DNA from: Pelosinus sp.
GTDB lineage: Bacteria; Bacillota; Negativicutes; DSM-13327
Assembly: GCA_029239675.1 (NCBI GenBank)
Contig: JARBUM010000013.1
Span: 1-56,317 of the forward strand
Length of the DNA stretch: 56,317 bases
Direction: 5' to 3'
Positions within the stretch are counted from its first letter, which is position 1. Every line of letters begins with the position of its first letter. The position numbers and the translations under genes are program-made. The notes beneath the pieces are model-generated. The model did no database searches, was not told the origin of the DNA, and saw nothing but the letters and a program-made list of their open reading frames with translations. Shown here piece after piece: positions 32,596 through 35,853 of this stretch.

Positions 32596-32988
32596 GCACC
32601 TCAAATAATCATTCTATCAAAATAAAATAGTCTACTCTTCTTAATTTTAATGTAATTTCAAATTATATAATTATGTATGAAAGTCCTTCTTTTGTAAAGC
32701 GAAGAACTCTTTATTCCATACGACCACATGACACCACTGTTATAAAAAAACTATCTACAAATCCTAAAAATCAAACAAACCCAGCCACTGCGAAGCTTTA
32801 TAGTCTGTTCTATGACATTTCATGTATTCTATTACATGACACGATAAATAATCAAATCTTAAAATAGACATTGGTCAATTATTGCCCAATGTCTATTTCC
32901 ATTATCATGATAAGGAAACATGTCTACGGCTACGTCTACTTACTTGTTTTGGCGATAGCCCTGTTGTTTTGGCCAAAGTGACAGCAAA
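32596..32988. other. Intergenic stretch with one hairpin
   Basis: A 393-base gap. It contains the LysR promoter side and the hairpin at 32862-32898. A 64-codon plus-strand frame (32673-32867) has no ribosome site, and its stop is inside the hairpin, so I do not call it. Confidence 0.5.
32862..32898. terminator. Terminator downstream of the riboswitch-controlled gene
   Basis: Perfect arms AAATAGACATTGG (32862-32874) and CCAATGTCTATTT (32886-32898). It lies 90 bases past the minus-strand gene ending at 32989. Confidence 0.75.
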
Positions 32989-33303
32989 TTATCTTGAGAA
33001 TTTCTGTTGTGCCCAGGCGTCCAACTTTTGAACGTGTTTTTTGCCGATAGTAAATCCGTAAACAATCAGCAAAACAATAACGAACGTAAATACATCAAAT
33101 TCTTTTGTTACAACAAAATTTACCACACCCAAAAGAACTTGAGGAACAACACCCGTAAGTACTAATATCGCCGAGGCTACGTTGAACCAAAACTGCGATT
33201 GCATTTTGTATCTTGCATAAAACATGAACGTTGTTGCAGACCAAGCAAAAATTTCGAGAATTAGCAAAATAGTCCATTTGTTTTCCATTATGGAGTTGTA
33301 CAT
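32989..33303 (-). CDS. Small four-helix membrane protein under a guanidine-I riboswitch
   Basis: A 104-residue inner-membrane protein with about four hydrophobic segments (roughly 10-30, 38-52, 53-66 and 70-88) and a basic C-terminus. I do not recognise the family. Like SMR exporters it is short and has one glutamate buried in the first helix (E17 in LLILEIFAWS), but it lacks the recognisable SMR pattern beyond that. Its leader carries a guanidine-I riboswitch, so export or handling of guanidinium is the natural hypothesis. Start: ATG 33303 has GGGAG at 9-base spacing; ATG 33312 abuts that site and ATG 33288 has none. Confidence 0.7.
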   Translation of the reverse strand: MYNSIMENKWTILLILEIFAWSATTFMFYARYKMQSQFWFNVASAILVLTGVVPQVLLGVVNFVVTKEFDVFTFVIVLLIVYGFTIGKKHVQKLDAWAQQKFSR

Positions 33304-33403
33304 ACAAATCATCTCCCTTACTGCCTAGCTTTAACTCTTCCTCAAAGGAACATTCATAGAATCCCCAAAAGTCTTCGGATTCCCCCTATGAGCACAAAAA
33401 AAG

Positions 33404-33444
33404 TAAAAGCCTTGAGAAGTACAAAATATACTCCCAGGCTTTTA
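33404..33444 (-). terminator. Riboswitch expression-platform terminator
   Basis: The 3' part of the aptamer (TAAAAGCCTGGGAGTATA on the minus strand) can pair with TACTTCTCAAGGCTTTTA downstream, followed by a run of seven T. Pairing would consume the conserved AAAAGCC segment of the aptamer, so ligand binding should prevent termination: a transcriptional ON switch. Confidence 0.85.
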
Positions 33445-33522
33445 TCCTTCCGTGTACACAGCTTGCTGTGCGCTTTCTCTCGGACCAGACAGGCATTGAT
33501 GCTTCGGAACCCTAGAAAGCTT
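33429..33522 (-). promoter_or_regulatory. Guanidine-I (ykkC) riboswitch aptamer
   Basis: Read on the minus strand, the order of conserved ykkC elements is intact: P1 GCTTTCT, then AGGGTTCCG, a variable hairpin, CTGGTCCGAGAG, AGAAAGC closing P1, a GCACAGCAAGCTGTG hairpin, ACACGGA, and GGATAAAAGCCTGGGAG. These are the hallmark segments of the guanidine-I class that senses free guanidinium. It lies about 125 bases before the ATG of the small membrane protein gene, with its terminator between. A further stem (CATAG/CTATG with GAATCC/GGATTC) lies in the leader at about 33350-33391. Confidence 0.92.
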
Positions 33523-33558
33523 TTCCCATATTCACTTTGCAATAGAAACTATAGTTAT

Positions 33559-33586
33559 ATTATATATCATTTTGCGACCCTTTAAT
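33559..33586 (-). promoter_or_regulatory. Promoter of the riboswitch transcript
   Basis: On the minus strand TATAAT (33559-33564) lies 16 bases downstream of ATTAAA (33581-33586), about 37 bases before the aptamer. The -35 is weak, the -10 perfect. Confidence 0.5.
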
Positions 33587-34265: not shown

Positions 34266-34395
34266 CAGATTCGCTCCCTATCAGTGTTTTCTACAGTATA
34301 ATAAAACATCCCGAAAATGTCTTCAGCCAATTGGATTGTTATCACACCATCCAATTTGTTATAATGAGAAAAACATCGAAATAAAGGAGAATCAA

Positions 34396-35853
34396 GTGTT
34401 ATCAATTGATTGGATGCCTAACCCTAAAGACTCAATACCTCTGCATCAACAGATCTCAGCGTATATGAAAAACAAAATCGCCAATGGTGAGTGGCCTATC
34501 AATAGTAAATTACCTCCTCAACGTACTCTTGCCCGTATTTTTCAAGTAAATAGAAGTACATTAGCAATCGCCCTAGATGAATTAATAGCAGACGGGTTAC
34601 TTGAAAGCAAGATAGGAAGCGGTACCTGGGTGGCAAATAATACTTGGTCATTACTGGCATCAACCCCACCCATCAATTGGACTTCCTATCTTGACAGAGG
34701 AATGCATCTCCCAAACCTTCATACCATTCAAGAAATCAACCATTTAGAATTCGATCCAAAGGTCATCCGCTTAGGAACAGGAGAACTTTCTCCAGAAATT
34801 TTCCCAAAAACTATGATGGATTCTATACTAAGGAAGTTGCCTAATCGTATTCACTCCCTAGGTTACGAAGAACCAAGGGGATTACCATTTCTCCGCGAAC
34901 AAATCAGTATTTATTTATCCTCCTTTGGTATCAATGCCTCTCCCTCATCGATTATGATTGTCTCTGGTGCACTACAAGCGCTACAGCTGATCTGTTCTAG
35001 TCTATTACCAAAAGACTCTACAATCTTACTTGAAAGACCCTCCTACCTTTTTTCTCTCAGATTATTTCAATCCATGAATATGGATCTTTGCGGCATTCCT
35101 CTTGATAACGAGGGTATGGAAATTGCACCAATCTCTTTTCACAAAAAACATAAAAATGTAAATTTACTATATACTATCCCCTGTTTTCACAATCCAACAG
35201 GAATCACAATGACGGAAAGACGTCGTAAAAGCATTATTGATGTATGCCAAAAGGAACAATTACCTATTATTGAAGATGATGTCTATCGAGAACTTTGGCT
35301 CGATACACCACCTCCGACACCATTAAAAGCACTTGAAAAAGAAGGTCTTGTACTCTACCTGGGCAGTCTATCAAAATCATTAAGTCCTGGATTACGTATT
35401 GGTTGGATCGTAGGACCAGAACCAGTCATAGAGCGACTAGCGGATACTAAAATGCAAAATGACTACGGTTCCAGTTCTTTATCCCAATGGGCTGCCGCAG
35501 AATGGTTGGCCAGCGGTCTCTACCAAACACATTTAGAAGAGGTGAGAGCACAACTACGAATTCGCCGCGAAGTGGCTTGTAAGACCTTAGAAGCCCATTT
35601 TTCAGATATTGCCACTTGGCAACTTCCTAAAGGCGGCTTTTATGTTTGGCTCATATTAAATCAGGCCGTCTCTATGCAAAAACTTTTCAAAGAAGCTTTA
35701 GATCATGGTCTTTTGATTCATCCTGGTACTATATACGATATTCTATCAAACCGCCATCTCCGCCTATCTTATTCTTATGCCTCATTGTCTGAAATGGATA
35801 ACGGACTATTTCACCTTTCTATGATCATCAGAAACTTAATAAGACACTCTTAG
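34396..35853 (+). CDS. MocR-type GntR/aminotransferase regulator
   Basis: A 485-residue regulator. An N-terminal GntR winged helix (about 10-80: PLHQQISAYMKNKIANGEWP, TLARIFQVNRSTLAIALDEL) is followed by a fold-type I aminotransferase-like domain with the PLP lysine in YLGSLSKSLSPGLRIGW and TIPCFHNPTGI. Such proteins bind PLP or an amino acid and regulate a neighbouring gene, here most likely the divergent LysE exporter. GTG 34396 is chosen: AAAGGAG sits 6-7 bases before it and the product starts like family members. The upstream ATG 34336 has no ribosome site. Confidence 0.88.
   Translation: MLSIDWMPNPKDSIPLHQQISAYMKNKIANGEWPINSKLPPQRTLARIFQVNRSTLAIALDELIADGLLESKIGSGTWVANNTWSLLASTPPINWTSYLDRGMHLPNLHTIQEINHLEFDPKVIRLGTGELSPEIFPKTMMDSILRKLPNRIHSLGYEEPRGLPFLREQISIYLSSFGINASPSSIMIVSGALQALQLICSSLLPKDSTILLERPSYLFSLRLFQSMNMDLCGIPLDNEGMEIAPISFHKKHKNVNLLYTIPCFHNPTGITMTERRRKSIIDVCQKEQLPIIEDDVYRELWLDTPPPTPLKALEKEGLVLYLGSLSKSLSPGLRIGWIVGPEPVIERLADTKMQNDYGSSSLSQWAAAEWLASGLYQTHLEEVRAQLRIRREVACKTLEAHFSDIATWQLPKGGFYVWLILNQAVSMQKLFKEALDHGLLIHPGTIYDILSNRHLRLSYSYASLSEMDNGLFHLSMIIRNLIRHS

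Follow-up and report, generated by a model that had tools for sequence, protein, structure and literature searches.

A family of small non-SMR membrane proteins behind guanidine-I riboswitches: candidate guanidinium exporters

Background

The exporter behind a guanidine-I riboswitch is usually assumed to belong to the SMR family. Guanidine-I RNAs share the ykkC fold, for which several ligand subtypes are described (PMC5912903, PMC7266159), and they are reported to act as ON switches by antitermination (PMC12186494). The targets of guanidine riboswitches that are named in papers cited here include carboxylases, guanidinase, a tRNA editing enzyme and transporters of the SMR, MATE, PnuC, ABC and APC types (PMC12186494, PMC5912903, PMC7736828, PMC11477304). 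SMR proteins are described as having dual topology or as forming oppositely oriented pairs, and in the exporter Gdx, residue Glu13 binds guanidinium and protons by turns, while Trp16 helps to hold guanidinium (PMC9574504).

The locus reported here has much in common with those of Gdx, a SugE-type SMR protein. Its gene is controlled by the same guanidine-I class, the encoded protein is of similar size and has a glutamate in transmembrane (TM) helix 1 (positional homology is not implied), and members of its family take the same regulatory slot as Gdx in related genomes. However, no sequence similarity between the two is detectable. Gdx has four TM helices, whereas the 104-aa family is predicted to have three in a fixed orientation, with the N terminus outside and the C terminus inside. 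Moreover, each member is encoded by a single gene and lacks, as judged by eye, the G-T-x-Y-A motif of Gdx. The MATE and PnuC-type transporters found under guanidine-IV riboswitches (PMC7736828) are likewise non-SMR membrane proteins that have been proposed as guanidine exporters on the basis of their riboswitch, but they belong to known transporter families, whereas the 104-aa family matches no entry in Pfam or NCBIfam. We recognized no description of this family in our literature searches, and its members may stand as hypothetical proteins in the guanidine-I gene tables of 2017.

Results and discussion

The riboswitch and its gene

The window is the whole stretch of Pelosinus sp. DNA that was analyzed (56,317 nucleotides; contig JARBUM010000013.1). 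The features of the locus are as follows.

33429..33526, minus strand: guanidine-I riboswitch aptamer (ykkC subtype 1); RF00442, 88.3 bits, E = 1.5e-14
33404..33444, minus strand: intrinsic terminator stem, overlapping the aptamer as an alternative fold; -18.2 kcal/mol, z = -4.0
33396..33402, minus strand: T run of the terminator, seven T, read from the sequence
33313..33319, minus strand: Shine-Dalgarno sequence AAGGGAG, read from the sequence
32989..33303, minus strand: open reading frame for the 104-aa, three-TM membrane protein, a proposed guanidinium exporter; ATG at 33303, stop codon included
33253..33255, minus strand: codon of Glu17, halfway along TM helix 1 and invariant in 27 of 27 aligned proteins
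32860..32898, minus strand: hairpin 3' of the gene, ending in TTTT, with a 14-bp outer stem in the fold

The original prediction, made from the letters of the window, placed the conserved ykkC segments in order on the minus strand and proposed that the 3' aptamer segment can alternatively form a terminator with a T run. Both proposals are borne out. In a covariance-model search, the aptamer matches the full RF00442 model (positions 1 to 107 of 107) with a score above the gathering threshold of 63 bits, and it is the sole above-gathering Rfam match within the whole window. The stability of the terminator is equaled by none of 200 shuffled sequences; a simple pattern scan for terminators did not list the hairpin at 33404-33444. 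The 5' arm of the terminator is the aptamer 3' strand, AAAAGCCTGGGAG, and this sharing of a strand is the architecture expected of an ON switch that works by antitermination. Of 27 homologous leaders, 25 fold into a hairpin that incorporates the aptamer 3' strand and is followed by a T run; in the leader of locus L044, the competing hairpin lacks the AAAAGCC part. The folding pattern missed two leaders with the same arrangement, which is seen by eye in the sequence of L051 and lies 437 nucleotides upstream of the gene in L024, with an insert between. The hairpin 3' of the gene suggests that the transcript probably ends there and is monocistronic.

Just upstream of the 104-aa gene and on the same strand is a LysE/ArgO-type exporter gene (PF01810; 33654-34265, minus strand), and a gene for a MocR-type GntR-aminotransferase regulator (34336-35853, plus strand) is divergent from it. 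No LysE match occurs in 41 homologous loci, some of which are short or redundant, so linkage with the LysE-type neighbor is taken as local.

Ligand subtype of the RNA

The core letters of the window aptamer (CTAGGGTTCC, GGTCCGAGAG and CACGG) are those of all 15 Gdx-linked aptamers that were analyzed by script. The GAGAG and CACGG core is present in 15 of 15 aptamers that are linked to Gdx and in all of those linked to the 104-aa family that the script parsed (22 of 26). One locus with an xpt-like gene and one with a purE-like gene, named by eye, have GAGCG and CACC instead. Core letters could be parsed for 4 of 19 other-type loci and for 1 of 6 loci with a radical-SAM gene. The scores are mostly split as well. 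In 40 relatives, switches preceding Gdx, the 104-aa family gene or a radical-SAM gene score 78.7 to 91.6 bits, and all remaining RF00442 matches score at most 63.2 bits. Three other sites in other genomes score 63.4 to 66.6 bits, and the two that were parsed carry the other core. The matches at 63 to 67 bits in genomes G780 (66.6 bits, before an xpt-like gene), G035 (63.2 bits) and G680 (63.4 bits) have the core GAGCG or AAGCG and were left out of the counts of guanidine switches before Gdx or the 104-aa family gene, as was a second site in G680 (L220, 66.1 bits) whose core letters were unparsed. Because its core letters and the split in scores match the Gdx-linked aptamers, the window RNA is taken to be of the guanidine-binding subtype.

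That the riboswitch and the gene are adjacent by chance, or that the RNA is another ykkC subtype, is hardly credible. Most letters are common to the ykkC subtypes, a few other-type sites elsewhere reach 63 to 67 bits, and the window's genome, G000, has two lower-scoring ykkC-like elements (C27:19117-19213, 53.6 bits; C146:41567-41686, 48.2 bits), which probably represent other ligand subtypes. However, the pairing of switch and gene recurs in 29 of 53 genomes, and a score of 88 bits together with the core letters fits the Gdx-linked aptamers and not those of xpt-like or purE-like loci.

The 104-aa membrane protein

The window protein has no match in Pfam or NCBIfam at E-values up to 10. When 27 homologues were scanned singly, only weak matches appeared, to families that differ between members; the best Pfam E-value is 0.012, and the strongest NCBIfam match is to the VC0807 family (E = 0.0005, three members), with spoVE matched by eight members (best E = 0.0016). 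Matches in PHROGs, at E = 0.15 or worse, were weak and were not used. A profile of the 27 sequences has no match among PDB sequences at E-values up to 10. AlphaFold models of the window protein (pLDDT 85.1, pTM 0.67) and of a Neobacillus homologue (pLDDT 83.1, pTM 0.67) match no PDB fold below E = 5; the second model matches three-helix complex-I-type subunits at E = 6 to 8, which were not used.

Helices of at least four residues in the window model span residues 2-7, 9-33, 37-66, 71-84 and 87-103, the last of which is polar, with a mean hydropathy of about -0.9. The original prediction of a four-helix protein thus gives way to a predicted arrangement, based on both AlphaFold models, hydropathy and charge bias, of three TM helices and a polar C-terminal helix. 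On this three-TM model, the loop after TM1 and the C-terminal tail together have 7 to 13 Lys or Arg residues, compared with 1 to 3 on the other side, in 27 of 27 homologues. This bias predicts a single fixed orientation, with the N terminus out and the C terminus in.

A buried glutamate, E17, was part of the original prediction, and it is indeed located at the middle of TM1 and is invariant in 27 of 27 aligned homologues. Other residues invariant in all 27 include Trp10, Trp21, Thr24, Tyr29, Arg31, Tyr32, Thr50, Gly51, Pro54, Gln55, Gly59, Asn62, Asp70, Thr73, Tyr82, Asp95 and Trp97. A TM1 glutamate followed one turn later by a tryptophan resembles the Gdx site by analogy, not homology.

The protein was also said to carry no clear SMR signature, and the searches agree. 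A profile search with PF00893, the test for a standard SMR member, finds no match to the window protein, and the 27 members, which together match 11 families, do not match PF00893 either. When the family profile was compared by hhalign with that of nine Gdx subunits, the probability was 1.4%, over 17 columns. A second suggestion, that the protein might be a very divergent SMR relative, gains no support from these searches or from the PDB sequence profile and was rejected; we regard a highly diverged Gdx as very improbable. Its comparable length and the glutamate in TM1 would fit such an origin, but the PF00893 and hhalign results, the prediction of three TM helices instead of four, the charge bias fixed in 27 of 27 homologues and the occurrence of the gene singly all argue otherwise.

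PQ-loop/SemiSWEET repeats resemble the 104-aa family in their three-TM architecture and in an invariant Pro-Gln located within a helix. This candidate was tried and rejected, as there is no match to Pfam PQ-loop or SWEET families, PDB sequences or PDB folds. Longer relatives, of approximately 206 to 218 aa, occur in the Neobacillus family (L185-L194; 7 of the 10 were trimmed to a start). Their N-terminal halves match the 104-aa family profile (E = 7e-14 to 6e-9) and keep the TM1 glutamate in 10 of 10, but they have double the length and lack the T-G-x-x-P-Q motif of the 104-aa family. The seven of these ten that were scanned have no Pfam match over the cut-off and no NCBIfam match.

Distribution of the family

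In a profile search, 16 of the 380 genomes that represent the window's class have a clear homologue (E at most 2e-33). The profile search is far more sensitive than a single-sequence search of 398 genomes of the phylum, which yielded, besides the window, only one match, a weak one (E = 5.7e-4) within a frame of 418 residues. A collection of named genomes contains 27 loci with clear homologues, in hosts that include Neobacillus, Aneurinibacillus, Tuberibacillus, Tumebacillus, Paenibacillus, Scopulibacillus, Clostridium sp. CX1 and Pectinatus. Within the Neobacillus drentensis family, 30 of 193 genomes have clear homologues, one of which (G868) is a divergent copy, and 10 more have weak or partial matches (40 of 193 at E-values up to 1e-3). 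Aligned relatives are 48 to 83% identical to the window protein, and a Priestia plasmid copy is 30% identical. In the plasmid search this was the one distant match (Priestia megaterium pFDU301A, 40% identity over 73%), and it has no guanidine riboswitch. Viral contigs contain no relative of the protein.

Guanidine-I riboswitches at or above gathering are upstream of the gene in 7 of the first 10 loci and in 2 of another 6 from the class. Of the 27 named loci, 14 have such a riboswitch; some of these are the same loci as the earlier ones. The switched copies are found in Negativicutes, Bacilli (Neobacillus, Aneurinibacillus, Paenibacillus) and Clostridium sp. CX1. Among the 27 loci, no guanidine-II, -III or -IV riboswitch above gathering precedes an unswitched homologue.

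The family gene and Gdx under guanidine-I riboswitches

Fifty-three different family-bearing genomes were scanned for guanidine-I riboswitches; G539 and G781, apparently the same genome, were counted once, and this sample includes neither the Priestia record nor the 10 longer relatives. The survey of homologues that had been proposed as a check shows a recurrent association: a guanidine-I riboswitch directly precedes the family gene at full score in 26 of 53 genomes, and in 29 when remnants are included. Degenerate copies are found in G770 and G848 (44.5 and 33.2 bits, respectively). In G017 (L064, L005), the aptamer and the gene are at two contig ends: the aptamer runs into transposase-like sequence, and a remnant of the terminator and the gene begin another contig. 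The region between riboswitch and terminator thus appears to have been split by an insertion element.

A guanidine-I riboswitch precedes a Gdx SMR gene in 11 of the 53 genomes, and both Gdx and the family gene are switched in only 2. The switched target is the family gene alone in 27 genomes, Gdx alone in 9 and neither in 15. With relatedness ignored, the one-sided Fisher p-value for this split is 0.0077 in all 53 genomes and 0.0011 when only the Neobacillus family (30 genomes) is considered; with remnants uncounted and the divergent G868 left out, and relatedness again ignored, it is 0.038 and 0.0095. Switch labels are clustered on the tree, which requires about eight label changes and gives just three pairs for an independent-pairs test (the final tree excludes L029 and L057, whose frames are broken, as well as the divergent L178). 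One of the two genomes that switch both genes, G916, has a shortened first Gdx subunit, and the other, G007, is a Negativicute.

The family gene has no switch in 24 of the 53 genomes, nine of which have a switched Gdx, and its role may therefore differ or be broader. In Neobacillus, the gene is found between an amino-acid-permease-like gene and a VTT/DedA-type gene whether the switch is present (L038, L040) or absent (L032, L039), and the genomes of L032 and L039 have switched Gdx pairs elsewhere. In four Negativicutes (G000, G017, G034 and G039), the family gene is the sole guanidine-I target at or above gathering, in G017 by way of the split locus. A PF00893 search finds no SMR protein in G017, G034 or G039. 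In G000, whose assembly is 89% complete, it finds one partial match (27.4 bits against a cut-off of 23.7; positions 25-92) that is ArnE-like by eye, and the assembled part of this genome appears to have no recognizable Gdx.

In five related genomes, high-scoring guanidine-I riboswitches are immediately followed by another gene, which encodes a radical-SAM protein of approximately 228 aa with the sequence CNFDCIFCPIG (L063, L084, L085, L086, L066 and L087 in G003, G006, G005, G003, G020 and G013, respectively). It occurs twice in G003, is apparently frame-broken in G020, and has PF04055 in the one copy that was scanned. We recognized no description of this guanidine-I-linked protein in a literature search; it could be a guanidine-related enzyme. 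In L069 and L070, the switched Gdx pairs are followed by a pyridoxamine-phosphate-oxidase-like gene (as judged by eye), and so is the switched radical-SAM gene in L087. A gene of this type also precedes the family gene in Pectinatus (L053; PF12900) and Selenomonas (L057).

Proposed function

The results support the earlier reading, in which a guanidine-I switch controls a membrane protein outside the SMR family, possibly a new guanidinium exporter. Judging from the sequences, we consider it somewhat probable that the 104-aa proteins are an unnamed, non-SMR family of guanidinium exporters, probably proton-coupled, that stands in for Gdx. A more specific version falls slightly on the doubtful side: the approximately 104-aa, three-TM, fixed-orientation family, unrelated to described transporters, might be a minimal non-SMR guanidinium/proton antiporter that has been repeatedly exchanged with Gdx under guanidine-I riboswitches across Bacillota.

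The window RNA would respond to guanidinium as follows. Accumulating guanidinium would bind the nascent leader and hold the aptamer 3' strand, thereby blocking the terminator and allowing the gene to be read. The product would be a three-TM protein, with its N terminus outside and C terminus inside, that exports guanidinium from the cell as a parallel homo-oligomer. Its cation site, in or near the membrane, might comprise Glu17 of TM1 with Trp10, Trp21, Thr24, Thr50, Gln55, Asn62 and Tyr82, and might alternate between guanidinium and protons. The 104-aa protein would thus fill the job done elsewhere by Gdx exporters.

Two gene contexts touch on the direction of transport. DUF1989, which we take to be a marker of the guanidine carboxylase (assimilation) route, is absent from 22 of the 28 genomes with a switched family gene that were searched (of 29; G848 was outside the search), including 10 of 10 Negativicutes. 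The gene therefore acts mostly where guanidine is not consumed by the carboxylase route, which points to removal. In addition, the family gene directly follows a TetR-type gene (PF00440) in 3 of the 27 named homologues, from Paenibacillus, Tuberibacillus and Scopulibacillus (L049, L050, L055), which have no guanidine-I riboswitch above gathering. A position after a TetR regulator is a common layout for efflux genes. Against export, 104 aa and three TM helices are very small for a coupled pump, and no transporter fold is matched. MATE and PnuC-type transporters are larger than the 104-aa protein.

The small size and the missing fold match would also suit an accessory or stress protein that responds to rising guanidine by protecting the membrane or by modulating a different exporter or permease, and many genomes retain the gene without a switch. 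We consider this unlikely. Once the local synteny of Neobacillus and of two Pelosinus is set aside, a single neighbor cluster recurs beside switched copies (cluster 15, on opposite sides in L034 and L051), the family gene is the sole full-score guanidine-I target in four genomes without a recognizable Gdx, and few genomes switch both genes. Somewhat less likely still, guanidine might be only a signal, with the protein exporting another guanidino or small cationic compound, such as a canavanine product, methyl- or aminoguanidine, or a quaternary amine. A precedent is that guanidine-I riboswitches are described as also controlling a canavanyl-tRNA editing gene, with guanidine as a sign of canavanine (PMC11477304), and homologues that follow TetR genes or lack a switch suggest other inducers. 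However, the family gene takes the slot of Gdx, which is reported to be selective for guanidinium (PMC12186494).

An importer or channel that feeds guanidinium into assimilation seems quite improbable. It would fit five genomes of the Neobacillus family in which a DUF1989 pair and a permease, APC-like by eye, are under guanidine-I control as well. But the carboxylase-route marker is absent from most genomes with a switched family gene, as noted above (GdmH-type guanidinase was outside that search), five of the six DUF1989-bearing genomes have DUF1989 behind its own guanidine-I riboswitch and beside a permease that is already switched, and a passive channel would pull the cation inward and raise its toxicity. 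Export of guanidinium remains our preferred reading, and the family gene may have another or broader role or substrate.

Conclusions

If guanidinium export is the correct reading, a second, unrelated protein takes the Gdx slot and would offer a minimal three-helix system for cation/proton exchange. It would also assign a role to proteins whose family was not found in Pfam or NCBIfam, and would explain how guanidine is handled in bacteria that have no recognizable Gdx, including, as far as it is assembled, the genome of the window.
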